Below, piece by piece: positions 40,563 to 58,300 of a stretch of 64,000 nucleotides of DNA. Source of the stretch: Tetrapyrgos nigripes (taxonomy: Eukaryota > Basidiomycota > Agaricomycetes > Agaricales > Campanellaceae). The notes beneath the pieces were generated by a model. It saw nothing but the letters and a program-made list of their open reading frames with translations, had not been told where the DNA came from and did no database searches. Every line of letters begins with the position of its first letter. Within the stretch, counting starts at the first letter, position 1. The DNA lies in contig JAACJM010000048.1 of assembly GCA_013368315.1 (NCBI GenBank), positions 310,001 to 374,000 of the forward strand. The letters run 5' to 3'. A program made the position numbers and the translations under genes.

Positions 40563-43381
40563 ATGGCCTCACCTTCTCATAACTTTCCTCCTACTCCCTG
40601 TCCTACTCCTGCTTCGCTTCCACCTCTCTCTAGTCCTATTCCAGGCCTCGTCAACGGCAACAGTGGTTTCAACTGTCAGGGGTTTGTTGTTTCGTTCTTC
40701 CTAATTTTATCCCTGGTCTAACTAATTGTTACTATGTGCCGTCCCTAGTGTTGCTTCCTCGGTAGACCATATTGTTTGTTTGGATGATCATATTCAAGAA
40801 CTGGAAACCGAACTCCAGATCAAGGAGGCCCTCATTTGTGGCTTGAACATCAAGATCAAGAAGGAAACGCAAGAATGTGTTCAGTGGGTTTCTTTCCTTG
40901 TGATCTATTCGTGTACTAATTTGTTCTCGACTTAATTACTAGGTTGATGGCTCAATTGGACCGTGAGCTAGACAATTGGTGCAGTATGAGTGGTATGTTC
41001 CCTTCGTTTACTTCTTCTTTGGTAGTGATACTTATCATTCTTTATGTTTCTCTTCAGCCACTGCTCAACAACTCATTACTACCATGCAAGCAGAGATTCG
41101 GTTTTTATCAACCGTTGGTCAGCAAGGCATTTGCAGTAGCATCATTTGAGAGGAACTGTCTTGGAAGACGCTGATGGTGTACAGGCTGCTTTGGAGATGA
41201 TCAATTTGTTGGAACGGCAGTGGCTAGCTCAAAACAACACTGCCCCTCCAGACAGTTCACCAATCACCCAGTCCTCTGTTAAACCACCAACCACATCATC
41301 CTTTGGCCCAGTCGCACCATGGTTTTCCAGCAGGATGACAACCACCATCACCACGTCTTCCACCATACAATCTCCACCGTCCTCCTCCAGTCCCGCACTC
41401 ACTGTCCCAACCTCATCACCACAAGTTCCTGGGGCACCAATTGCATCCACCAGTGCACAAGTCGATGTCATCAACATTGATTCTGTGCCCACCGTGGAAC
41501 TGCTGTTTCTGAGACAAGGCTCAGTTAAAGAGGAGAGTGATATGGACTGGCTGTGGTCAGAGTATCTTGTCTCTCCACCTGCCACTCCCACTCCAACCAC
41601 TATACCTTCCTCTGCTGCAGCCCATGATGCAGTTGGACCCAGCCCTACCACTGCTACAGACTATGCTGCCTCTCGACCTGCCTCTCCTACTCCAATCACT
41701 CTACCTTCCTCTACCACAGCCAACAACACAGTTGGACTCAACCCAGCCACTCCTATTCTGGCCATCACACCTACCTCCAGCAGTGCGAACAATGCATTAG
41801 CATCATCCTCTTGATATCCCCCCACCCAACTGGCCTCCCCAATACCACCTCGACCATGTCTCAGAACAATGCAGCAGCATCATCCTCTCGATGTGCCCCA
41901 ACCCCCACTGCCCTCTCCTCAATGTACTCACACACTGCAAGTCTCATCCAATCAGCTTTGTGCATTCCTGGCTTGTCTGGCTGGGTCTACATTGAAGCAG
42001 AGCCCAAACTCTATCTGTCCTTTGCGAGGTCAGCTCCTTTAATGGAGTTTCTGTGACATTGTCAATGCGTGAGGCATAGTCACAGTGGAAACCTTATCAT
42101 GGAACCCGTCTCTACTCAAGAGATGGGTCAGCTGCTTCTATGGACCCCCCCAGCCCTCAAACCAATGACCTGGGTGAGAGTGAGAAAGGGGATGTATACA
42201 GGTGATGTCAGCTTCCTGGTCAGATGAGAAACCTCAGGTCCTTCCCAACGAGTTGTCCTTCTCCTCATTCCTCAGTCTTCAAATGAGTCAGTTGGTTGCA
42301 ACACAACAACATTGTTCAGTTTACATGAGCACTATATACTCTCTTTGCAATGGGTCTTTACTGATTTTGCTTGCCAAAAACAGTTCATGAATGTATCTCA
42401 AGGATGTACTGCCTCTTGGACCGCATCAGCAACAGTTTCGTCAAGTGGACGGGTCAGGACAACAAGGACCAGCAGGGAGCGAAGCTGCAGTTCCCCATGA
42501 AGACACCAGATACACCCTGGAAAGATGTCCAAGTCATTGTAATCCGTGGTCCGAAGAGATCATATGAAGGGACCATCATTGACGTCATGCGAGGAGACAC
42601 CCTGAAACTCGCAGATGGGTGTCTGGCATACCCTGGTGGATTACACATCACTGTAGCTTCAGTCAGGTGATGACCTACAACCACGGAAATGCAGCAAGAT
42701 TGGAACTGGATTATAGTTGGATTTGAGATGCAAAGTGAGTGACTACAGTTTTTTTCCCCCTCATGCCTTCTGAACTGACTGTGTGAGCAGTACTGGACAA
42801 GGATTGGATGAAGTGTACCCATTAAAAGTTTCCCAGCAGTACTATCAACCCAAGTTTGCTGTGGAAGTGATCAAGATTCCAAAACACATCTCATCTCAAG
42901 AGAAATCCACCATTCCGCAAGGTCTGACTCTGCCTCCACCCGAGAATGAAGTGTGTTGTGATGGCAGTGCTTGGGACCCCACCTTCTCAGAAATAGACTT
43001 ACCATCGTTCTCCAAGCTTCTACCGATGTGGATGCACCCCCCACTCGATGGGAAGATGTTCCTAGCCAACCTGAAAAGGACCAGATACATGCTACTCCCA
43101 TCCTGAAGGATAAGAAGGTGCAGCTTCAATATGGCAAGAGCAGACCATTCCTTGTGGATCCTGACCAGGTGCATCTGAAGCCAGTGAAAGCAACTTCTCA
43201 TGAAGAAGGTATGCTCATTTGTTTCAGAGAACATGGTGGCAAGTATGCTCAGCATCTCTACATCCGGTATGACACAGAGGAGCACAAGGAGGTGCCTTGG
43301 ATGGTTGTAGCAACTTTCAGCAACTGGAGAACAGCAGAGGAGGAGGTCTTAGATGAGGAGTTATGTAAGGGCGACTCCTGA
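40563..43381 (+). pseudogene. Spt5-related (NGN/KOW-like) repetitive gene, decayed
   Basis: ATG at 40563 (MASPSHNFPPTPCPTP). Three short introns are clear: about 40682-40749, gtgggt..actag about 40883-40942, gtatgt..cttcag about 40993-41058. The exons encode a coiled-coil-like QELETELQIKEALICGLNIK and LDRELDNWCSMS. A one-base shift near 41143 breaks the frame. A long Ser/Thr/Pro region follows, then IPGLSGWVYIEAEP (about 41965-42005), which recalls the NGN domain of Spt5, and VIVIRGPKRSYEGTIIDV (about 42535-42590), a KOW-like motif. The last exons read GLDEVYPLKVSQQYYQPKF and EHGGKYAQHLYIRYDTEEHK. I recall expanded Spt5-like families in Agaricomycetes; identity is inferred, and more than one original gene is possible. 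Confidence 0.45.
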
Positions 43382-44223
43382 CATGTGAGGCAATCACTCA
43401 ACAACTGCAGGAGGGGATCCAAAGATATATAAATCAGAACTAGAAGATACAAGGCTGACATACTATGCACCTGCAGGAGGGGATCCAAAGAGAAAAACTC
43501 AAGGATCTTGCCTGCAGGGAAGGGTTATATATACTCGTATGAAGGCCTGGGAAAAGATCTACAAAACTGTACAGTTGAAATGAAGTAATGGAAAGGTGGA
43601 ATGATGGGAGATCAAATGATGAACGATGAATGATGGATGATGAAACAGTGAAACAGGAATAAACAAGTCAATGAAGTCTAGATAAAACAAGAACAAACAA
43701 GTCCTAAAGGAGAAGGGAAGGAAAAAGGAAACTGTCCCCTTACAAGTTACTCATTGATGCAAGTGTTTGCGTGAATGCTGGGCCTATAGCCTGTGATAAT
43801 CCTTTGACTCCCTGGGTGCAGCAGAAGAAACTTGCATTGAGACACAGTAGAAGAGAGCAGAGATGCCCACCCAACAAGAAGAAGAATTGAGTTACTGGAC
43901 ATTTACTGGACATTGTGGACACAGAATAGTTTGTATAGATGTGCTTCTTGGAACTGGTTTTGTCTTTATTGCCATAGACTTTTGTATCGATATTGCAATT
44001 CTTTTGAGCTACCACACATGTAGATATATGTAGATATATATATTATCTGATCAAGCTAATAGATGTACATTGTAACGCAAAGGCTGGAGATACAAACCCG
44101 TCCGAGACAACGTTAAACTACACTACCGACTATGCTACTGGCATTGGGAAGGGAGACTGGCAGAAAACAAAGTAGGGAAAAGTTATCCAAATCGACATTA
44201 AACTACACAGAAGGGAAACCATA
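43382..44223. other. Purine-rich gene-free region
   Basis: A 22-bp direct repeat (CTGCAGGAGGGGATCCAAAG core) occurs at about 43405 and 43471. GATATATGTAGATATATATA lies near 44025. No convincing coding region or terminal repeat. Confidence 0.4.
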
Positions 44224-44840
44224 CTACTCAATGGGGATTGGAGTCGGGTCTTGCAGGTTGATTGAAGTGTCGTCACTGGAAGGGTTTGTAAACCAAGACC
44301 AAGCTTGGCAAGATGTGCTGCAATTACTGGACATCCACCTGTAGGCTGTAATGCTCGTCAGAATAGACAAGAAAGAGACAAAAATGGGTAGGTACACACT
44401 GAGATCCTCTCCTCCTGGCGCTGACAATATCAATTCCCAGAACTGTAGGCCTTCACAATGAGTCTGATGGATTTCTAAGATATTAGGTGAGTAATTACAA
44501 TCCATTGCCAACGAACAACCAAAACTCACTTTCCCAGTGCTTGACAAGGGCTTTCTCTTCCCAGTTCCATGCCTGCAAGGCTGATGTGAATGCCACAGAC
44601 TCAGTTGCACCAATATTCACCCTCTGCACCTCCTCTCCTGAAGAAGAGTAGACAGTACCCATCCCTCGTTCAGAAACACTGATGGTCATGTTGAGACCAG
44701 GATCTTCTTCATAAATGACATGAAGCAAGTCTTCCACGAAAGCAGGTGCTACTTTGAGGGTGATTTGCCATTTCACATGTTCACAGGGGGAGGTGGTTTC
44801 GAGATAAGCGAAGTTGGGAGGAGGATGGAGCTGGGAAGTG
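44224..44840 (-). pseudogene. 3' part of a small gene split by the 9.9-kb transposon
   Basis: On the minus strand, coding sequence resumes after the target duplication with QLHPPPNFAYLETTSPCEHV and KWQITLKVAPAFVEDLLHVI (from 44832), to a donor at 44529. A 55-bp intron (44529-44475, gtgagt...cttag) follows, then EKIHQTHCEGLQFWELIL.. to TAG at 44224-44226. A second intron of 51 bp (gtgtac...attacag, about 44377-44327) is likely and also preserves frame. The 5' exon is at 54866-54761; summed exons give 660 nt, a whole number of codons. Without the insertion it would be an intact protein of 202-219 aa. Function unknown; no clear domain. Confidence 0.75.
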
Positions 44841-45094
44841 CACTTCAGGCACCCATACTAAGGTACCTAGTTAGGTGGATTAGCTCCTGCAAGCTAATCC
44901 ACCTAAGTAGGGATAGTAACCTGGTCTCTAACCAAGTACCTGGGATCTACCAACTACCTCCTGGGCCTTCCTGTGGGACATCCCATGTGGTCTGGGATCT
45001 ACCTGTGGGATATCCCATGAGCTGGTTCTTGGCTGTGGGACTAACCAGCTCATCCCTTTGGGACATCCCCAGTGTCACACTGTCACACAATTTT
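44841..45094 (+). repeat. Left 254-bp terminal inverted repeat
   Basis: 250 of 254 positions match the inverse of 54507-54760. It contains a 14-bp-stem hairpin (44872-44885 with 44892-44905, loop cctgca) and three palindromic GGGAYATCCC boxes. The frame reading through it is accidental. Confidence 0.97.
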
Positions 45095-45411
45095 AGTTAA
45101 TTACTGAATGTATTTCGTGCACTGCATGGCAGTCTTTACAATTTCACTGATTCACTATTTCCTTGGTTAAAACTGTAGGCAGTATTTTGAAGTTTCTTCT
45201 GTTTCAGATATGTTCTTTATTCATTTGATATACTGGCTCTCTGATGACTATCTCCATATTATTATTCCTGATCAATTTCTTACAGTTATGTTTAAGTATA
45301 TTCTACCAGCATTACTCCAAGAGGGCAAGAAGTGATTTTTAGCCACATTCCAATGGTAGTTGTCAAAGCCCTTCAAAATTTGTAGCTTGAACCAAGGCCC
45401 ACACACTTGGC

Positions 45412-45791
45412 TGGGAAATCCCAGCTCCCCTCACCAATGCCGGGACATCCCAGTTCCCCTCTCAAATGAAGGGACATCCCAGCAGCAAAAAGCTCACCTG
45501 GGATGTCCCACATCTACACAAATCTTGGGATATCCCTGGCACTGAACATGGGATCTCCCTTGTGGTCTTAATCTGCATGGGATGTCCCAGCCTCTATATA
45601 TGAGACTAACCATCCCAGCTTCACCACTTGGGACATCCCAACATGTGCAGTGGGGATATCCCACCACTCTTGATGTCATGGGATATCCCAGTTCACAACC
45701 CTTGGGATATCCCAATTGCGCAGGTGAGTGGGAACATCCCATTCTCAGCCACTGGGATATCCCAATAGCCCAGGTCAAGAGGGACATCCCA
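45412..45791 (+). repeat. Left subterminal array of 14 TGGGATATCCCA-like palindromes
   Basis: Boxes GGGACATCCC, GGGATGTCCC, GGGATATCCC and close variants occur 14 times in 380 bp, spaced about 20-50 bp, with unrelated sequence between. Being palindromic they read the same on both strands. Likely transposase- or host-protein-binding sites, by analogy with subterminal repeats of hAT elements. Confidence 0.93.
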
Positions 45792-46468
45792 ACAATTTAC
45801 TTACCACATGATTCTGTAGGCATCCAACCCAGTTCCAGGTTCCAGAGGACTGTCCCAGACTCTCCACTTGGTGAGGCATATTATCTTTTCAGTTAATCTC
45901 CTCAGCTTGAATGACGTTTTGAGACGCAAAGAGTTGTTACAATTACTATACAATTATCATTTGACATGAAGGGTATAACTACGATTATATTCGCTTAGAG
46001 CCTAGACATAGTAAGATGATAGCCCAGCTAAGTATGTTGAAGTTTCACAACAAGATGGACAGGATCACAAAGCAGCCACATGCCCACTGTATACTCCGGG
46101 TCAGCCAGAATTGTGCACATAGTGCCCACAAGCGCCCAAAGATGTGCACAGTTCTGGCTGACGTGGACTATACAGTACATGCGCTCCCAGCTTTGTCATC
46201 TCTTCTATCTTTCTTTTTTGTTCTCATTGTCGTCCTGAATGATGAGCTCTGGCCTCTTTGCATTGAACTGTGACACCTCCCAAATTAAGTTCATTTCATG
46301 ACGGTTCATTTTAGTTTTGGTACATAGTACAGTCTAAATGCATTACTGACTGAAATTGCGATGAACTGGACCTGAACAGTGCATTTTGAAGTAAAAAGGT
46401 ACATGGCCTGGAAGTTTTGGTGTTGGGGTTCAATTTACCAAAAATGGACAACCTGTCACAGTGTTGAT
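45792..46468. other. Gene-free interior
   Basis: A 20-bp class inverted pair, agccagaattgtgcacat (about 46104-46121) and atgtgcacagttctggct (46142-46159), forms a hairpin. No protein-like frame. Confidence 0.4.
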
Positions 46469-46535
46469 TGACAGAGCGGAGTGCAGAGCATATTTGCTAG
46501 CTATTTTTGTACACCCTTAAATGATGGATAGTTCA
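46469..46535 (+). repeat. Diverged partial copy of the 51961 foldback unit
   Basis: GAGCATATTTGCTAGCTATT, TTTGTACACCCTTAAATGAT matches the foldback unit's GAGCATATTTGCCAGCTATT and TTTGTGTGCTCTTAAATGAC. Confidence 0.65.
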
Positions 46536-46667
46536 CATGATTTTGGGTGAGATAAAATCAATTGTATTAGCTGCCAAAAAGCTGGGCCACTTAAGTTTTT
46601 CAATGCTAAACCCTTTATTCATTAAGGAAGCAAATTTTGATTGGTGAGAAAATGAGCCGAAAGGTAT

Positions 46668-46982
46668 GACTGGGGCAAAGAGCCATCGCTTTGCGTGGCA
46701 AATTACGAGACCCTTTCATGTAGTCTAGCTCAGGTTATGCAGAAGGGAGGGTGAATCAGTGGAAAGTGAGAGGGAAGAAGGGTTAAGTAGACCGATTTGA
46801 CATGCTAGCATGACATCATGGTTATTGACGTCAACAGTCCTTGGATCTGGTCCAGATCAAGTCTGGACATTCCAGTTGTTGGGAAAGACAAAGACTGGCT
46901 GTGGCGACGAAAAGGGGTGGGAGTTTGAGGTCGTGGTAAAATTTTTGAGGTCAACATAAGTTAATAAGAGGCCTTGTAATAA
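46668..46982 (+). repeat. Copy 1 of a repeat family starting GACTGGGGCAAAG
   Basis: Left part: GACTGGGGCAAAGAGCCATC then GCTTTGCGTGGCAAATTACG. Right part: GGGGTGGGAGTTTGAGGTC, then ACATAAGTTAA and GGCCTTGTAAT. The TTACGAGRCC near the left and the inverse GGCCTYGTAA at the right act as short inverted ends. About 315 bp. Confidence 0.65.
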
Positions 46983-47116
46983 GAAAAGGACTAGAGAAAG
47001 ATACGAGGTAATGGTAAAAGTGCGAGAAAGATGCGGATGACGTGAGAAGGGTACAAAGTATTAATAATGAGATGTAGATCGAGATCATTAAGAAGATATG
47101 AAGGTTAGAATGGTTT

Positions 47117-48353
47117 GACTGGGGTAAAAAGCCATCGCTTCGCGTGGCAAGCTACGAGGCCTGTTCAATAAAGCCAAAATTTTACTCTTATATTGACTAC
47201 GCGGATGAAACTATTTAGGAACCCCTGCACTGGCGGGAACCCGCCACAAACACGAGGTTAGCGTCTGTTACGCCTTTGTCACGCTTGAGTCGCGATCAAA
47301 TAGTGGTCGTCGTCTTTGGCGTCGTTCTACAGTCTCTGACACCAAATTTCTGTGCCAGCATCCCCCTCGCATGTTGCCTTCACTACGGGATGCTGTTGGC
47401 GAGGACCTAGTACTACATACTCACGCGTTCTCCGCAGTCGTAAGCTCTTCACATTATCATAGCGATTTTGGTCTTTCCATTGAAGTTCCCAAGGTCTTCG
47501 AGCTCAGCTTAGCATAGTATGTGAGAGTATGCGGTCTTTGAGGTGCTGTGTACGAAGCTTGGCTTGTAGAGAGTGGTCTGAGGTGCGTGCCGTTGTTGAA
47601 CTGACATTTCTTTTCGTGCCTGCTGCTCCCCGTTTTGATTTCTATGCCTCAGAACCCTGCGTTAATGTAGTTTGGACACAATCAGTACTTTTCCATAATC
47701 TTTTAACCAATTTTCACCACCCATTACACTGTTTCTCCCCTATTCTACATGTCTCTGTGCATCTAGACATGTTTCTAATATTAATGGACATTTTTCGCTA
47801 CAATCTACGCCTACAGTACGCGTAGTATCCTCGCCAGCGCCTCGCATCGTGACTCGATGTGACCTAGTGTGACATGATGTGATGGGAACCGGGTTCCCAA
47901 ATAAGCAAAGGGGTTCTCGGGGGGTTCCCGCCAGTGCAGGGGTTCCTAAATAGTTTTATCCTGACTACGCTGCAGCTGCTGAGAGAAGGAGAGCTAAAAC
48001 AACAAAAGAGGATTTGAAGACGAGAATTACGAGGTTTGTACTCGATGCAAAGGCAAGCTTGAGGAGTGGAGGAATAGGGCGGTGGACATTGTCAATGCTG
48101 GCAGTGAAAACGAGAGAGTCGACACGCTGCCAGCTAGCATGACGTTGGCATGATGTTGTGGTTGTCGACAGAAGGGCCTCGCGTTGGTTCGAGGAAGCCG
48201 TGAACAACGTCATGGGTCTTTGATGGGTCTCGACCGTGATTCCAGATGAGCGCCTATGAGCGCCAACGAACAGGGGTGGGAGTTTGAACCCGTGGAAAAG
48301 ATCTGGGAGGTCGCTACGACATAAATTAACTCAGCCTAAAGGCCTCGTAATAT
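47117..48353 (+). repeat. Copy 2 of the same repeat family, split by a MITE
   Basis: Left part GACTGGGGTAAAAAGCCATC, GCTTCGCGTGGCAAGCTACG. Right part GGGGTGGGAGTTTGAACC and AAAGGCCTCGTAAT. The 759-bp element at 47203-47961 sits inside; without it the copy is about 470 bp. Confidence 0.7.
47203..47961. mobile_element. 759-bp Mutator-like MITE with 9-bp target duplication
   Basis: Ends of about 40 bp are near-perfect inverses: GGATGAAACTATTTAGGAAC / CCCTGCACTGGCGGGAACCC against the inverse of 47922-47961. The 9-bp duplication tgactacgc flanks it (47194-47202, 47962-47970). Nine-base duplications are typical of Mutator-like elements. It is richer in CpG than its surroundings and has no transposase. 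Confidence 0.88.
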
Positions 48354-48669
48354 ATCAACGAGAAAAAAAGAGGAATCAAGGAAAGGCAATTGTGGAATGA
48401 TCAAGAAAGTTCAAGTTTGATGAAATATATGATGATGGAGGGCAAAGGATAGAGGCAATTCGTGAAAAATCCTGTCGCTGCTGGTAAACATCAATAGCAT
48501 GCTGGTACAATTGTTCTTGTTAAGATAGACTATATGAGATCTGATGATGCAAAAAGGTACCTGAATAGACTGATTCATTTCCTCAAAGTGTTCATAGCAG
48601 GCAACCACCTTTCTAATGTGATTCAATCACATTAACACGTGCGAAATTTGTGTGCAATTTACATCTGCC

Positions 48670-48882
48670 ATGTATCCTACCCTCCTGCATCCTTTTCATC
48701 TCATTCCTCCTTACATGCCTCGAACTTGTAATCAAGCTGTTGAAGAGGCTGCTGGGGCTGACAACCAGTCAGAAGAACAGGCAACATTGTCTACTTGGGA
48801 TTGTGAATTGCTAGCAAGTCAGGATGTTGAGGAATCGGCTGACAACAACTCAGCCCATGCCAGCCACGACGACGAGAACTAA
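48670..48882 (+). CDS. Short acidic ORF, unknown
   Basis: ATG at 48670 opens 70 codons (MYPTLLHPFHLIPPYMPR.. then Glu/Asp/Asn-rich to HASHDDEN) and a TAA. It ends 47 bp before the membrane-protein pseudogene. It could be a fragment of the lost transposase or a chance frame. Confidence 0.3.
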   Translation: MYPTLLHPFHLIPPYMPRTCNQAVEEAAGADNQSEEQATLSTWDCELLASQDVEESADNNSAHASHDDEN

Positions 48883-48929
48883 TTTGGCCCTCAGGTGGTG
48901 TGTTACAGTATGTAGAGTGGCTGCAGTAG

Positions 48930-49770
48930 ATGGTGTGTAAGGATATTCGCAGAGAGGACGAGATCAGGGATAGAGGAAAAAGCGACGCTCTGTCCAAATT
49001 CCTCGCTATAGGACAGACCACTTGGTTCATTGTCCAATGTATTTTTCGTGTTGTGGAAGGAATCTCTATCACAAACCTTGAGATACTCACACTTGGTTTC
49101 GCATTGCTCAACTTTTGGACATATTTCTTTTGGTTGGATAAACCTCAGAGGGTCTGTTTTCCAATTAAAATTAATTCTCAAAATCAAAGCTTTAAGGAGG
49201 AGGAAGCACATCCCGCAGGACCCAAGTGGTGGGGAGTGGATTGTATTATTTCAGGTTTGCAAGCCATACGGGATTGGTTCTAAGCAATTTGTCGGGAAAT
49301 AAGATCCAATTGGAAACTTTTAAAAGACAATGGCGTTCCACTCCTAGTCATTACCTACCCCCTCGCCACACTATTATCCGAGAGTATAACTTGGGAACTG
49401 GACAATCCAATTATCATAGCGGCCTCAAAAAGTGCCCCAAGCGCTTATATGTTTCAGTCATATTCATCGCAGTCATATTTGGGGCCATCCACTGCATCCC
49501 ATGGGCTTTCACATTTCCATCCCACACAGAGCAAATCGTGCTCTTGGAGTCACCTCTCTTCCCGTCTTGGGAATGTTTCTACCAGTCATCGATGACTTGC
49601 TTCAGTTGCTAGTGAGCTCAGACCTACCCACAGTTATAGGGTTATCTGTGCCAATTTTCTATGGCATTGCTCAGATAATCCTCATTATCCTCGCTCTGAT
49701 GGAGTTGCATGCACTTACGACCAGCGCCCATCAAACTGTAGAATGGACGAACCTCATTCCTCATATCTGA
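48930..49770 (+). pseudogene. Multi-pass membrane protein family of basidiomycetes, broken, cargo of the transposon
   Basis: ATG at 48930: RREDEIRDRGKSDALSKFLA, IGQTTWFIVQCIFRVVEGIS, ITNLEILTLGFALLNFWTYF and FWLDKPQRVCFP. Further frames give KRLYVSVIFIAVIFGAIHCI with PWAFTFPSHTEQ (about 49440-49530) and IFYGIAQIILIILALMELHA with HQTVEWTNLIPHI to TGA at 49768-49770. Four or more hydrophobic helices are visible. This order strongly resembles a widespread Agaricomycete membrane-protein family of unknown function that I recall. Two changes of frame occur: one near 49200-49300 may be an intron, that near 49530 is a true shift. Confidence 0.6.
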
Positions 49771-50559
49771 TTCAAATCTCATCGTATATCCTCTCAGATT
49801 GGGTCTCTTCACTGGTACGTACTCCGTTGCGATCCTTTCTTCTCTTACGTTCTCTGATATTTTTTGTTTGGTTTGAAATTAGCTATTCTCGACGATGAGA
49901 CTCAAGTCATTCACAATCTATGCAGCTGATATTCTCTCAGTTTTTTCTACCTACTTTGTGTAATTGTGATATTGAATAAAACATTTTATTTCCTGGAGGA
50001 TTCGGAGTCCGAGTCCTAGAGTAATGCAGATATGCTTTCGTGGTTGTACACCGGTATTCATGGAAGTCAGCACTCTCGCTTTGAAGTGCTCCTTCCTTAC
50101 TTAGTATGGTCCATATTGTCCTCTGTAGTATCTACTACGGAGTCGTATGTATCTCAGGACTCGCTCGCACAGGAGTACTAGGCCAGAATTTACTTAGAAA
50201 CCTGTACGTACTTCAGTATTCCCTCTATTCATACCAGAATCATAAGGAGTACTTTAAAATCAATTAAGAAGTCAGCATATTTTCGCCGTTTGGTCGCAGG
50301 CCTATCATGATTCCGCTTATACTTTCAATACTCATGATACTCATTTACAATGTACGACCAGGCGTAAAGCAGCCTTATATGTACTTTACTTATTGATTAT
50401 AACGAGTCAGATTCGAGTGAACTCCTACTATCCTGCATGGCCACTAGTACACCTGATATTGGTGAGTGACTCGAATCTAGGTATGTACATGAGTGTAGGA
50501 TTTATATGACGCCCATATGATGCCCACACACTCTTGAGTCGTTTCATAGACTCATTCTA
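49771..50559. other. Gene-free interior
   Basis: Tyrosine/TAC-rich motifs such as CGTACT and GAGTCGTATG recur, but there is no protein-like frame or clear repeat. Confidence 0.35.
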
Positions 50560-51009
50560 TCAGACTTCAACCAAAAAATCAGGATTCCAGTGGTAATTTT
50601 GGGTAAACTTGTCCCAGACCAAGACACCATGGCGATGGTCACCAAGGTAGGACCAGAAGTCGTGTTGTTGTGAATTGGTATACTCGGTAGGCAATGGAGT
50701 AGGGATATCGGCATCCCTACTCCAGTATTCAGGCTTATCCAAGCATCTTTATACTACAGAGACTACAAACAAGTCCTTCAATACGAGTATGGTAAGGCAT
50801 ACATGGACCATCTTGTTCCCGAAGACTACCACTGTCACCTACTTTCATCGTGTCTGACACAGAATGCAAGTCGTACGTTTGTCAACTTAATACGTGCCAA
50901 GTGGCTCGCCATTAATGATAAACATATGCCCAACATCTCAAAAATTCCTCAGCTGGGAAGAAGATTCTCGTTCAGGAAAATGTTTCCCTATCATATGACG
51001 ATAGCCTAG
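50560..51009. other. Two abutting protein-like ORFs on opposite strands
   Basis: Minus strand 50742-50560: CLDKPEYWSRDADIPTPLPT and DFWSYLGDHRHGVLVWDKFT to a TGA. Plus strand about 50729-51009: ASLYYRDYKQVLQYEYGKAY, HLVPEDYHCHLLSSCLTQNA and IPQLGRRFSFRKMFPYHMTI to a TAG. Both have natural residue usage; the plus frame lacks a good ATG. They may be remnants of one or two captured genes. No family recognised. Confidence 0.35.
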
Positions 51010-51960
51010 TACCATAACAATCAATACCGTGCACTATCCCTCTTTCAGTTTCACCTTGTTAGCTTCACAATTTGCAGCAAGGACCGCGTTCGATGCGTTA
51101 CCATTTTCAACCGTCCAGTTCAACATCCAACCAAACGGTGTTGCCCAATTTGGTCGAACAAAAGTGCTCATTTGCTCCAAATGAATAGGACAATAGGATC
51201 TATTTTCGAAAGACTATTCTAATTTGAATACACCAGACAAACGACATTCATTGTTCCGAAATTGGTAAGTCACTGAAAAGTGGTAGGCAATAAAGGACAA
51301 TTTGTCGTGTTGACCTGACCCGGCCGACTCACTGATTGAGGTAATGGGTCTGGAATCCGGGAAAATCTCTAAGTTTTCCTAAATTTATCGGGTCGTGGCA
51401 CCTGGGTTCTATATGGATATGTTAGGGTCCTCAATGTTGGATTTTGAATTTCCGCTGATGAGCTCGGAAGCTCAGTGATGCATCGACGCTCCTATTTATT
51501 GTCTACGATTTATTATGAAAACGCCTGTTTTAGTCATTGATATACTTATGTACGATTTGGGAATGTCGTGCGCTTGCCACGGGTTCCCTGCCTATCTGAA
51601 TTTACTTTTCGTTGCTGTGAAATCCTCTCTCTCGTTTTCATTCGACCGGTAAATTCAACACTCAAATACATCTGTACTGGGCCGCAAAGCTGTGACGCTG
51701 CATACTGTACCATTTAAAATAATTCGTCTCTCAAAATTTGTGTGACAACCCAGATGAAATTTTCATTTTTTCTGGACCTTCGGTGACCTGTAACATGTGT
51801 GGGGTAGGTACATTGAATAGACAATTTAAAAATGATGCGTAGATCTTGCCATTATTAGAGAACAATAGGAGAGAACAATAGGAATATGCTGGCACTTTGA
51901 ATAAGGGCAATTCCTATATGCAGAGATGGTGCCGAACAATTAAGAGACCAGAGCACCACC

Positions 51961-52371
51961 CACAGCGGGGCGCGGAGCATATTTGCCAGCTATTTTTGTG
52001 TGCTCTTAAATGACGGATCTTTGCTCGGCCCCAGGCATACTCCATATGAAATATCGGCCTCAAATCGGTGCCATATGGAGTATGCCCAGTGCCGAGCAAA
52101 ATCCGTCAATTAAGAGCGCACAAAAATACCAGGCAAATATGCTCCGCGCCCCGCTGTGACAGGTTGGAAAGGTCACAGCGGGGCGCGGAGCATATTTGCC
52201 TGATATTTTTGTGCGCTCTTAATTGACGGATTTTGCTCGGCACTGGGCATACTCCATATGGCACCGATTTGAGGCCGATATTTCATATGGAGTATGCCTG
52301 GGGCCGAGCAAAGATCCGTCATTTAAGAGCACACAAAAATAGCTGGCAAATATGCTCCGCGTCCCGCTGTG
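51961..52371. repeat. 411-bp foldback: two inverted 200-bp units, 11-bp loop
   Basis: 51961-52160 and 52172-52371 are near-perfect inverses around aggttggaaag (52161-52171). Each 200-bp unit is itself palindromic, ending CACAGCGGGGCGCGGAGCAT and its inverse with about 85-bp arms around a central CATATGRAATATCGG..CCATATG. The array is thus four copies of one arm in alternating orientation. The duplicated short ORFs here are artefacts. Confidence 0.95.
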
Positions 52372-53171
52372 CTTGGAGTCTCACTGCAATGCGACTTCAA
52401 CAAAAACCAATATGAATATCCCAATTGACATCGCAAAAACAATTCTACCTAGCGAAGAGCTTCCTATCACTGTTTGTTAATTTCCCTGTACCATCAACAA
52501 GGAAAAGGAAAATCGGTCATCAAGCCTGTGGCACAGTGTTGTCAGCAGGATGCACACACTTGATTTTCAATATATTTCTATTGGTAGAACAAATTTTGCG
52601 TTTACACCTCGCGTTTACACTGTAAGTATATATAGATTTTTGCGTCTAGGTACATCCTTCTTTTACAATTTACATGTATACAAGTATTGTATTTGCACTA
52701 AACACTTGGTTTCTTTACCGGTAAGCTTTGATATAGCTTGTGGGCCAACTATGGATAAGCCAGATATGTTGTTCTCAGGCTTAGGAGCGTTGCGTGGAGT
52801 CGAAAGTAGTGAATAAAAATAACAGATCTTGTGTAGAGTACCCATACAGTACCTAGAGAAGGCCCAAGCTGACCCAAAAATGTCAATGACCTCTTCACAT
52901 GCCCATCAACCATCCGCAGGTCATCCTCAGATTGGTCCGATAATATCCAAAGACCCTATCTGCCATCTGAATCCACTAAGACAACTCCATAGGAGACACA
53001 TGGGAAAGTTGTTAGATGTTGCCACTGTGGCAGCCATTTTATGATGGCCAAGCTGTGGAAAATGATTTACACGTGCGTTTCAAAATTTGCATTTACATCA
53101 ATGCTTTGCATTCACATTGAGGTGTTATATTTATACTAAATTTTGAAAGCTTAAGTAATAATAAAGTATAT
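52372..53171. other. Interior without a clear gene
   Basis: Short frames only, for example DPKMSMTSSHAHQPSAGHPQ near 52875. Parts of the missing transposase could be hidden here but cannot be recognised. Confidence 0.35.
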
Positions 53172-53549
53172 TTGATGGAATGGCTAAGATTTTGGCAACG
53201 ATTCCCCAATGTAATTTGCTCTTCGTCAGGGACAATGAACTCTCTTGCGTCGTCTCCTCCGTCTCCGCCAGGCTATTACGTGGTGCCAACATGCTTGGCC
53301 TGCAATCTTCTCTGTATTCCAGGCGAGTTTTGCTTTATTTTGTTTGTTTGTTTTTTTTTCCTTCATGAACTCATATACCTGTTCATAGGTTCTGCTGTTG
53401 GTGTCGAGCATAGCTTCTCTGGTGGCCGTGATACTATGCCCCTCGGTAGTCTTAGTGCCGAAGCAAAGACCATTTCAGCTTGGATGGTGGTAAAAGTTCC
53501 GCTACGTGTGGCTCACGCTGGAATCATGGAGATTTTGGTGGGTGTTTAG
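53172..53549 (+). pseudogene. hAT-type transposase C-terminus (dimerisation region)
   Basis: The frame reads MMEWLRFWQRFPNV (the W..RFP motif preceding the hAT dimerisation domain), then LACNLLCIPG and, after a 66-bp intron, SAVGVEHSFSGGRDTMPLGS and LSAEAKTISAWMVVKV. This is the IPxSSxxxERxFSxGRD..R..L..E signature of hAT C-terminal dimerisation regions (PF05699-like). The intron 53323-53388 has a GC-AG border (gcgagt..catag) and a length divisible by three. Only about 100 residues remain of a normally 600-900 residue protein. Its place just inside the right palindrome array links it to the element. Confidence 0.6.
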
Positions 53550-53808
53550 TTTGTATTCTAGTAGAGTCTTGTCGTCTTTGAGAATTATAATTATTTGGAC
53601 CATGTAATATTCTAATAGAGTCGTGTTGTCTTCGAGAATTATTATTATTTACGGTATGCGTATGCCATTATAAGTCCATTAATAAAATACAGCTGACTTA
53701 TATATTTTAACAGCCTTGTTCAGGCCCAATACTTTCACATACTGCTTATATCACACAAATGTCCAGGAGAGCACACAATTCACTATTTGCCCAGTGAGTG
53801 GAATCTGT

Positions 53809-54125
53809 TGGGATGTCCCACCGCATGATGATGGGAAGTCCCACTGAAGGCAGGCCATTGGGATATCCCATGTAAGCCAACTGGGATATCCCAGTCATGT
53901 TCAAGTGGATGGGATGTCCCATATGAGCCAACCGGGATATCCCATGCGCTGTTGTGGGCTGGGATATCCCAGGAGAATGCATAGGGGACATCCCATACAA
54001 CGTATGGTGTGGGGATATCCCCAAATATTTCTCAAGGGACATCCCTGTCTATAAATGTGCCTGGGATATCCCAATTTGCAAGATTGGGAGATCCCATGTG
54101 GATACATAATACTATGGGAAGTCCC
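53809..54125 (+). repeat. Right subterminal array of 13 TGGGATATCCCA-like palindromes
   Basis: GGGATATCCC, GGGATGTCCC, GGGACATCCC and GGGAAGTCCC boxes, spaced about 20-30 bp, mirror the left array. One box is shortened (GGAGATCCC). Further weaker boxes follow to about 54185. Confidence 0.93.
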
Positions 54126-54506
54126 ATGAAAAAGCACAAAGAATGTCAAGTCCCTTGCCCCAACACATTACTGGGATGTGCCAGCTGACAGGTGAGATCT
54201 TGGAATGTGCCAAGTCCCCACTTGTGCAGTTCAGTGCCTGTAGCACCAGGAAAAGCTTAACAAGTTATGGGCACTGTTGATATCTTTACTGGACAATGAA
54301 TTAAGTTGGAAGGCTGGAGTGAGCAATGGGTCTACAACAGAGTTTAGCATGGGTAAATGACTGATAAGTTATTTATTTTATGAGGCACTGCTCAGTATAA
54401 TATTTTGAGTGCAAGGAGATGATATGACTTTATAATTAAAATTGGCCATGCTAGGTAGTCCAGAGATGAGGTTGACAGGAAACAAAGGATCCAATTATTA
54501 TTAGGG
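54126..54506. other. Spacer between right array and right TIR
   Basis: No gene. It corresponds in position to the 317-bp spacer 45095-45411 on the left but the two spacers are not similar in sequence. Confidence 0.4.
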
Positions 54507-54760
54507 AAAATTGTGTGACAGTGTGACACAGGGGATGTCCCAAAGGGATGAGCTGGTTAGTCCCACAGCTAAGAACCAGCTCATGGGATATCCCACAGGT
54601 AGATCCCAGACCACATGGGATGTCCCACAGGAAGGCCCAGGAGGTAGTTGGTAGATCCCAGGTACTTGGTTAGAGACCGGGTTACTACCCCTACTTAGGT
54701 GGATTAGCTTGCAGGAGCTAATCCACCTAACTAGGTACCTTAGTATGGGTGCCTGAAGTG
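54507..54760 (-). repeat. Right 254-bp terminal inverted repeat
   Basis: Inverse of 44841-45094 with four substitutions and no indel. Followed directly by the target duplication gggaagtg (54761-54768). Confidence 0.97.
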
Positions 54761-54866
54761 GGGAAGTGAAGGAGGGAGTGATGCCTTCCATAAGGAAGAC
54801 ATGGTCGTTAGGGTAGTCAGTGTAGAACTGGGCGTGTTTGTAGAACTTGGGCTTGAAAGCAGCCAT
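54761..54866 (-). pseudogene. 5' exon of the gene split by the 9.9-kb transposon
   Basis: ATG at 54866 in a good context (cactATGGCT) reads MAAFKPKFYKHAQFYTDYPN and on for 35 codons plus one base up to the transposon. The frame continues exactly at 44832. A TATA-like gtataaac lies about 45-50 bp upstream on the minus strand (near 54915). Inside the transposon the frame reads on by chance through the TIR. Confidence 0.75.
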
Positions 54867-55336: not shown

Positions 55337-58300
55337 ATGACAAGCAGACATCATATGCCAAAGGCTCCACCCCCACAGCTGACAACGGAGGATTATCTTC
55401 CCAAAGTCATTGATCCCGCAGCTCATCCCAAACATCGAAAGCAAGGCAGTATTGTCATCCAACTTTCTGAAGACCGATATCTCACTCAACCTAATTGACT
55501 TCCATGTCTGCGTGGTCAACTGGGCATTAATGGTGATCATCCCATTGAGCTGGATGACGAGACACCTGCTGTCGCTCTGCCTGTTATGCAACACACCGAT
55601 ACACCCCTCGACAACCAAAATCATATAGACTTCGCTCTTTTCAGTTCCCTGACAAAGTCCACACATAGGAAGAAACGAGAGTGCCAATGGAAGTCATGGC
55701 TGAAGAACGTTATTCCAACTCTGGTTGTCCCTTACACAGAGATGATGGAGGAAACACAGGACCTTTGCTTACAGCCAACACTACACTTGGCCTCTAAATG
55801 CCTTTGCAACGGAGTGCACTCCATTGATATAGTAGTTATTCGTTTTAACAGTGCGTGGTTGAGTATTCTCTTGATGACTTGTCCTCAACAGACATTTTTC
55901 AGCCATCAAGAAATTGAGCATCTGGTTATGTAAATGCTCTCCAGTCACTGTTCAGCTTATCAGGAGTGGTCTGTTTCCTTGTGCCCCTTTCTCCCCCTCA
56001 CTTGCTGTGGATATCTGGATGCTAGACTTCGTCACACGTCTGTTTCTATGTGTCTCGCCTAATGTCACTGTGTGGTGCAACGTGTTGCAGGAGCAGCTCC
56101 ATCAACAGGGATATTGGTTGATAGGGATGGACCCTCTACGAAGATGATTTGGCAATTGTCTATTGTGGTATCGGAGCCTGATAGACGCCGTTCATAGTCA
56201 TATGAAGTCATTACTAGAGGATATCTGAACCAAGATCTTATCCCAGGAGCTTTCAACTTCTGCTCTTTCTCCGCCTCTTCCTGGTCCACCATTGGGTCCC
56301 CCTCCTTCTCCTCCATCACGTTCTGATATTGCATCCCAGTCTGACCCTTCTTGAAAATGAAAATGAGGCAAGAAAGAGGTCATTGAACTGGATGGTGTTG
56401 AGGAATCTCCACCTTCCAATCCACCACTTGAATCCCACACCAAAAATCCTCCTGAAAGTTCCAATCACACCAGTGCATATTTGCACTCACGGTGCACCCT
56501 TTGCTTTGGCAGTACGACACGACTGCAGCACCCAGATGGAATGCTTGATACATGTTTTATGCACAAACATTGTGATCAACATGGCTGAGATCCTCCTCGT
56601 TTTCATCCAGACACTTTCTTCCTGGCAGAGGACAACATCAAGGAATGGGCAGATATGGTCAATGAGGCTTGCTCTACCAGGCCTCCTAAACGTGCTCAGA
56701 AGAATGAAACAGAAGTAGAAGTGGATTACTTTGAGCACAGTATGCATGTCCCAAAGTCAGCGTTAGACATGTGCTTGGGCTCCTTCAAGGCAGCTCACGA
56801 GACGTTGGCCAAGGCATCTTGATCCAGATATGACAGCACAGGTTATGCTGCTCTGGTTTGTCCACATGACACCGCTTTATTCCTCATCAGCATGGATTCC
56901 CCTGGTGAAAGGCAGCATTATATGCTAGCTTTGCTGGGAGAATTCTTCAAGCACATCCCAGATGACTGGACCATTGGAATTCTCTACAATATTGGCTGCC
57001 AGATTGAGCGAAGCTGCTTGAAGTGGGGCCTGCTAAAAGAGTATCTGCCTCGGATTATATGGGAAGTGTCCATATTTCATGCCTATGGCCACATTTGGGC
57101 ATGTCAAATCATATACCACCCTCAGAAACACTGTGGCTTTGGGCTTTGTGATGGGGAAGGATGTGAATGGTGTTGGAGTTGTCTCAACCATTTAGTGGCA
57201 TATACTTGTGTTGTAGGGGTGAGTTGAGTCCGTTCTTTTCTTTTTGTCTTCATTTCCCTACCACGATGCTGAAGACAATCATACAGTTTTACCCTCAATT
57301 GTACACCATTGATGTCCAGTTACATCATCATAATGAGCAAGTTCTACTCAACGCCAGCCATTGGTTATGCCAGAAAATCCAACAATGCAACCAGTGTCTA
57401 CTGGACACTACACACAAGCTGCGTGACAGTGGCCAAACTATGGAATTCCTTCGTGAGCAGTGGAAAGCCCAAGTCTATGCTCAGACAAAGCCTTTACCTC
57501 ATAAGAATCTTCATTCTCTGATGTTGAGTTCTCATGATTTTTTTCTAGGCCAGAGAAGAGGTGCTGCTAATGCTGCTGTCCAGGAGGCCTTACACCTTAG
57601 TGAAGCTGTAGACATCTTGGATAAGCGTGTGTTGGATCTAGAAGACATGATAGTTTCTGGCCACTCTCAATAGTATCAGACTGTCACTGCCCATGACAAG
57701 CTAAGCAAGGCACGTCAAGCCCACCAGCAGGCCCAAGACAAACTGGTTGCTAAGGAGAAGGCACTTGGGATGAATAGGGAAGACTTCCATCACCTGAAGA
57801 ACAACACTTTTTTCAACAAGCATTTGAATGCCTTAGCAGTCAAGGAGAGGCTTCAGCAGAAACTCATTTCACAGAAATTTGAGTTGACTCACCTGGAGCA
57901 ATCGTTTCAGAAACAGAAAAGTGGTGTGTCTGTCTTGATAACCTGATGAAAATGTAAGCTAACCTGCAATCATAGAACATAAGGTCAACACTCATGTGCA
58001 AGACTCCATCAAAAGACATGATCCAATAATATCCACCCTAGCCAACAAGTATAACGGTCTCTGTGACGAATTGGGCAAGTTGATTGCAGCTGGCAAAAGC
58101 CCACGAAATGCGATAGCTCCTGTGAAGATTGATAAGGAGTGACTCTTTGATCTTGACGTCAATGACAGTATTTGGCAAGACTCTGGGCTAGAGCTGGACA
58201 CAGACGATAAGCCTCCACCTCCTTGGATGGCCAATGAGGATGTTCAAAAGGGGATCTGTGCAATGCTGGAGCTAGACTGCTGTCAGGAAGAAGATGGCCA

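Follow-up and report, generated by a model that had tools for sequence, protein, structure and literature searches.

Which transposase moved the 9,920-bp element that sits in one stretch of the Tetrapyrgos nigripes genome, and what does this element carry? The stretch, hereafter the window, is the 64-kb segment C48:310001-374000 of a 98.46-Mb assembly (C with a number denotes a contig of that assembly). The element occupies window positions 44841-54760, with a perfect 8-bp duplication, gggaagtg, at both flanks. The original prediction, made from the window sequence alone, described a recently moved, non-autonomous, gene-carrying transposon with mixed cargo and pointed to hAT as the family. Our analysis supports a gene-carrying transposon with an 8-bp target duplication, non-autonomous as far as it was scanned, and replaces hAT by another family. 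Specifically, with a probability of about 0.9, we read the element as likely non-autonomous and as likely mobilised by a KDZ transposase encoded in larger relatives with the same ends.

Boundaries and target site

The borders of the element are formed by terminal inverted repeats (TIRs) and target duplications:

44833..44840, no strand: left 8-bp target duplication gggaagtg (direct sequence; single copy at four of five paralogous sites)
44841..45094, plus strand: left TIR, 254 bp, with an internal self-complementary hairpin at about 44866-44911 (hairpin from reverse self-matches)
54507..54760, minus strand: right TIR, 254 bp, with 4 mismatches relative to the left TIR (direct comparison)
54761..54768, no strand: right 8-bp target duplication gggaagtg (direct sequence; single copy at four of five paralogous sites)

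Direct comparison confirmed the predicted coordinates, the 254-bp TIRs with four mismatches and the gggaagtg flanks. The TIRs align over 254 bp with 0 gaps, and extension by repeat finding reaches 261 bp at 97% identity. For an empty-site test, the genome was searched with the left flank, and both flanks were aligned separately to five non-self paralogous loci. At four of these loci (C332, C243, C72:808 and C91), the end of the left flank and the start of the right flank overlap by exactly 8 bp. The overlap reads gggaagtg in three of the four uninterrupted sites and has one base changed in C91, while the fifth locus, C72:40652, gave no alignment across the element junction. Because the target is single-copy, with an exact 8-bp overlap, at four of the five paralogous sites, the element entered as one unit into a single-copy target and made the 8-bp duplication.

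When a DNA transposon inserts, neither of its TIRs is templated on the other. The left TIR of the window is identical to the TIR in C213, differs by one base from the TIR in C571 and differs by four bases from its own right TIR. Because it is closer to the TIRs of these other copies than to its partner, the differences between left and right TIR probably predate the insertion in the window. The near identity of the ends, from which recent movement had been predicted, was therefore rejected as a clock. The copies themselves point to a fairly recent spread. The C571 copy, which holds most of the cargo, aligns in three blocks at 99.4, 98.8 and 97.9% identity; two stretches are missing from it, 47119-48349 and another of 116 bp, and it is cut by the contig end; C83 holds the right part of the element including part of the cargo, and C213 holds one end. 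Identity of 97.9–99.4% between copies is thus better evidence of fairly recent spread than the identity of the TIRs.

Relatives that share the ends

A 260-bp query from the left end has 53 matching stretches genome-wide, 17 of which are reverse matches of the hairpin inside the TIR. The 17-bp tip has 49 exact matches, and 7 with one mismatch, among the matches listed; at up to two mismatches it has 115 matches, compared with 40 for the pattern read backwards. The sole other recognised pair of ends of the window subfamily is C376:14162-36293 (22,132 bp), which has KDZ stretches (PF18758) between its two TIRs. A KDZ domain lies 2.8–3.1 kb inside the end, pointing toward the end, at C376, C337, C379, C83:288425 and C89, and a Pfam scan retrieved it again at C337 (E 3.1e-48) and C376 (E 3.6e-16). 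The original prediction proposed searching the host genome with the TIR for copies that encode a transposase; a KDZ domain is indeed found between the C376 TIRs and near four other ends, but the C376 frame contains a stop. The same 22-kb relative also holds a 375-aa open frame for a Tc1/mariner-type transposase (DDE_3 and HTH_Tnp_Tc3_2; L011:1254-2378). Across the genome, KDZ matches number at least 173.

The two end segments of the window element correspond to two opposite ends of C376:

44841..46136, plus strand: left end segment, about 1.3 kb, about 75-77% identical to the non-transposase end of KDZ relatives (C301, C312, C290, C237, C131 and the right end of C376)
53668..54760, minus strand: right end segment, about 1.1 kb, 69-77% identical to the transposase-side end of relatives (C337 and C379 over the whole segment; C376, C83 and C229 over part)

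Five ends resemble the right end of the window element (C376, C379, C337, C83 and C229), and four of the five hold a KDZ domain, with none at C229 among the matches listed. The window element is assigned to KDZ because its ends are shared with these KDZ-encoding relatives, and not on the basis of a transposase of its own.

Pairs of ends at C339, C37, C25, C29 and C395 belong to a sister subfamily. The C339 element (L031:831-6427) measures 5,597 bp and has perfect 1,235-bp TIRs and a perfect 8-bp duplication. Among the seven end pairs of both subfamilies, the target duplication is 8 bp and perfect in four (window, C339, C25 and C29), 8 bp with one mismatch in two (C37 and C395) and 7 bp in C376. 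Another duplication length, which the original prediction had named as telling against it, thus arose in one of seven pairs, and the other six are at 8 bp.

The predicted hAT transposase C-terminus is real as a fragment, and has to be weighed as the possible remains of the element's own transposase:

53388..53546, plus strand: hAT transposase C-terminus remnant, 53 residues (similarity to a hAT open reading frame (ORF) at C427)

Pfam does not recognise the fragment, which is 56% identical to the C427 ORF, and this ORF scores 1.4e-19 to Dimer_Tnp_hAT. In favour of a hAT element, the fragment is close to the right end and recurs at C571 and, in part, at C83, and hAT elements also usually make 8-bp duplications, according to the available part of a published account (PMC12730594). 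However, the fragment comprises 53 residues, and its relatives other than the C571 and C83 copies, 29 of them among the matches listed (37-62%), are located elsewhere in the genome. Moreover, KDZ domains stand at a fixed place in relatives with the same ends, including between the same TIRs at C376. For a hAT element, 254 bp would also be a long TIR, which was counted against this reading. We therefore regard it as very improbable that the element is a hAT element. Judged by its relatives, the hAT piece is a foreign scrap, and hAT membership was rejected: the domain found in the relatives, whose interiors were scanned in part, is KDZ.

Palindrome arrays at both ends

Each end of the element carries an array of short palindromes:

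45413..45790, no strand: left array of 10-bp GGGANNTCCC palindromes, with three more at 44975-45069
53810..54095, no strand: right array of 10-bp GGGANNTCCC palindromes, with three more at 54532-54626

The mirrored arrays noticed in the original prediction were borne out, with 27 exact occurrences of GGGAYRTCCC inside the element and none in the remaining 54 kb of the window. Spacing at both ends is mostly 23-24, 27-30 or 50-53 bp, with occasional intervals of 13, 32, 36, 39, 47, 58, 76, 80 and 91 bp.

We surveyed 19 ends from both subfamilies for the motif. The left and right ends of the window element, C301, C435, C337, C229 and C89 have 8-17 motifs each, compared with at most 0.03 expected by base shuffling; their centres are TA, CA or TG in 76 of 95 motifs and CT in 5 of 95. 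In C339, C37, C29, C395 and C107 (8-14 motifs each), which show the arrays of the sister subfamily, the spacing is much the same and the centre is CT in 44 of 56. For a test of conservation, motif columns were set from a third sequence that was not a close relative, and pairs or references more than 95% identical were left out. Conservation of the motifs exceeds that of the spacers in 81 of 81 comparisons in one set (means 0.944 versus 0.848) and in 15 of 15 in the other (0.911 versus 0.675), although the comparisons share sequences and are not independent.

From this pattern, we predict that the GGGANNTCCC arrays are docking sites for the transposase complex or for an element-encoded protein. 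In the mechanism that we propose, the KDZ transposase of the larger relatives would act in trans on the window element. It would recognise the tip of the TIR and, via the palindromes, the subterminal arrays, and would then excise the element and join it at staggered 8-bp breaks. The arrays might instead be ordinary satellite-like expansions without a role in movement. Their regular spacing does resemble that of tandem repeats, units have been gained and lost, and the first 800-900 bp of C25, C293 and C412 hold one motif each. We consider such an origin somewhat unlikely because the motifs outlast the spacers in all comparisons, the outer half-sites and the spacing persist in the sister subfamily despite its other centre, and arrays are present at both ends.

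Several observations weigh against a KDZ-mobilised element with array-based recognition. First, in C376, the sole large relative for which both ends were recognised, the duplication is 7 bp, the TIRs are 88-92% identical to those of the window element and 89% identical to each other, and the KDZ frame contains a stop, so that no intact transposase partner came to light. Second, the domain scan of the window element covered 9 of its 63 listed ORFs, and neither a KDZ domain nor another transposase was found among those, nor was KDZ found in the element among the genome matches listed. Third, a CxC zinc domain was not found at E 0.01 in ten ORFs of C337 and C376, which were scanned as single frames without gene models and in which exons may be missed. 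Fourth, 7 of the 19 ends (C23, C25, C304, C329, C293, C569 and C412) have 1-5 motifs in their first 800-900 bp and no clear array. Finally, the regularity of the arrays may partly reflect duplication of repeat units, and the 116 bp that the C571 copy lacks lie between two palindromes.

Captured host DNA and the surrounding element

The KDZ-element ends of about 1.3 and 1.1 kb enclose 7.5 kb of DNA that is foreign to the larger relatives. Besides the hAT scrap described above, this interior comprises a captured membrane-protein gene, a MULE-like insert and a foldback:

47119..48349, no strand: stretch without a counterpart in the C571 copy, including the MULE-like insert (copy comparison)
47203..47961, no strand: MULE-like nested element of 759 bp; TIRs of 43 bp; duplication of 9 bp, tgactacgc, at 47194-47202 and 47962-47970
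48950..50680, plus strand: 1.73-kb fragment captured from a multigene family of the host (a fungal membrane protein); identity to the C584 and C18 paralogues 77-82%
51956..52376, no strand: foldback with 205-bp arms, read as two head-to-head copies of a miniature inverted-repeat transposable element (MITE) of about 200 bp (repeat search)

The foldback and the membrane-protein pseudogene had both been predicted correctly; of the predicted nested MITEs, one nested insert was established, namely the MULE-like element. The paralogue at C584 matches protein D9758_018413 of Tetrapyrgos nigripes at 100% identity with 98% query coverage, and C249 holds several stretches related to the captured gene. 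The homology of the captured piece reaches beyond the long open exon, which suggests that the gene was captured as DNA. Compared with the paralogue, the window copy contains a stop and changes frame twice, near paralogue residues 190 and 241. In the C571 copy, the frame shifts at both of these positions and once more near residue 98.

These lesions bear on the idea that the cargo is functional and that the element spreads a membrane-protein gene to the benefit of the host or the transposon. In favour of this idea, the gene family is large in the host and in related fungi, and the cargo is kept in another copy. However, the window gene is interrupted by a stop and two frame changes, and both frame changes recur in C571, together with one more. 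A functional cargo is thus highly unlikely; the captured gene is probably a passenger that was broken before the copies spread.

The DNA around the 9,920-bp element is likely itself a KDZ-type element:

41155..43886, plus strand: outer, interrupted KDZ-type element, remains of a second gene, tentatively Spt5-like (NGN/KOW; weak domain matches, one frame against)
56541..57239, plus strand: KDZ transposase domain of the outer element (E 6.9e-43; about 50% amino-acid identity to the KDZ of the relatives; 3 TGA stops inside)

The KDZ domain belongs to a decayed gene at about 55.7-58.2 kb with about 50% amino-acid identity to the relatives. TIRs of the outer element's own were not found among repeats of at least 40 bp in window positions 20000-64000. 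Flanks of 18 family ends were also compared with the interiors of KDZ elements and with the outer DNA of the window; 5 of the 18 matched (best E 1e-19 to 4e-115), and no insertion preference is claimed because the matched stretches are possibly other repeats.

The second gene of the outer element is also present in the large relatives (loci L010, L017, L020, L022-L025 and L029), with about 85% identity in the best stretch. Its product is tentatively Spt5-like. NGN matches (Spt5 NGN, E 0.0044 in the window and 0.15 in C301) and KOW matches (KOW, E 0.02, 0.067 and 0.025; KOW1_SPT5, 0.065; KOW5_SPT5, 0.35) follow the order expected for Spt5, all below the Pfam cut-offs, and SPT5 was the sole match in the PDB (E 0.12 and 0.16). 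The longest frame (C337, 517 aa) has no Pfam match at E up to 1, which counts against the assignment, and the C376 frame has no homologue among 561 protein-database candidates. Taken together, the window element is likely a KDZ element that is non-autonomous, has captured host DNA and lies within a second element of KDZ type.

Known systems and significance

Transposons that hold captured host gene fragments include Pack-MULEs and gene-capturing Helitrons, and gene capture by Helitrons reportedly occurs in Pleurotus. The window element resembles them in its captured host gene fragment but differs in transposase class, since its ends are KDZ. In CACTA (En/Spm) and Ac elements, clusters of short subterminal motifs lie at both ends and are held to be transposase-binding sites. 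Motif clusters likewise lie at both ends of the window element, but they consist of 10-bp palindromes spaced at 23-30 bp, the element is KDZ and binding is predicted.

The closest structural match is KDZ1 of Cryptococcus neoformans. In the available part of its published account, KDZ1 is about 11 kb long, with 241-bp TIRs, 8-bp duplications and a transposase with a CxC1 domain; KDZ2 and KDZ3 have TIRs of 139 and 169 bp and duplications of 4-8 bp (PMC12810828). According to that account, elements spanning these ranges (139-241-bp TIRs, 4-8-bp duplications) were observed moving in Cryptococcus, and a CxC zinc-chelating domain is reported in all three transposases (PMC12810828). Relative to the range of some 100-250 bp in KDZ1-KDZ3, the 254-bp TIRs of the window element are in keeping, and those of C339 reach 1,235 bp. 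The window element shares with KDZ1 a similar size and TIR length, the 8-bp duplication, the KDZ superfamily and a basidiomycete host. Unlike KDZ1 (PMC12810828, available part), it contains captured host DNA, no transposase was found among its scanned ORFs, and the single-frame scan of ten ORFs of the larger relatives revealed no CxC domain. As far as that text is available, it mentions no palindrome arrays ('subterminal' occurs 0 times and 'palindrom' once; PMC12810828).

Other described KDZ families are likewise comparable in part. In the available part of a second account, Zisupton and one Dileera family have 8-bp duplications, described Kyakuja families have 7-bp duplications, no TIRs and CA..TG ends, and Zisupton, Dileera and Kyakuja families described in fungi carry TET/JBP genes (PMC12730594). 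By this description, the window element resembles Zisupton and Dileera in its 8-bp duplication and in the KDZ transposase of its relatives; it resembles Kyakuja in its CA..TG ends but differs in having TIRs and an 8-bp duplication (PMC12730594). The genome has two Tet_JBP matches, C284:50588-51019 and C404:26041-26394 (the latter below the cut-off), and neither contig has a family end among the matches listed. About 3.3 kb separates the C404 match from a KDZ match.

The suggestion that the family is undescribed holds in part: the superfamily is described and KDZ1 comes close in structure (PMC12810828, available part), but the window family itself was not found in the open-access literature searched. 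A KDZ element combining captured host membrane-protein DNA with phased palindrome arrays was likewise not found there, and neither was a description, in the texts as available, of how a KDZ transposase recognises its own ends. The newest feature is the combination of the subterminal GGGANNTCCC arrays with the switch of their centre from mainly TA/CA/TG to CT in the sister subfamily. A far-reaching proposal would be that the GGGANNTCCC arrays, with their regular phasing, serve as an address code in KDZ transposition: an element-encoded protein, either the KDZ transposase or the tentatively Spt5-like product of the relatives' second gene, would dock at both ends, the change of the two central bases would have divided one lineage into two families unable to mobilise each other, and non-autonomous gene-capturing elements would ride on the code. 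This proposal is speculative and, taken as a whole, quite unlikely.

KDZ transposons are numerous in the host genome, with the matches counted above, and are mobile in a human fungal pathogen (PMC12810828, available part). Among them, the window element is well supported as a likely non-autonomous member, and it indicates that KDZ ends are able to carry captured host DNA. Its palindromes provide a concrete candidate recognition element, and the two sister subfamilies with their two motif centres provide a natural experiment in specificity.

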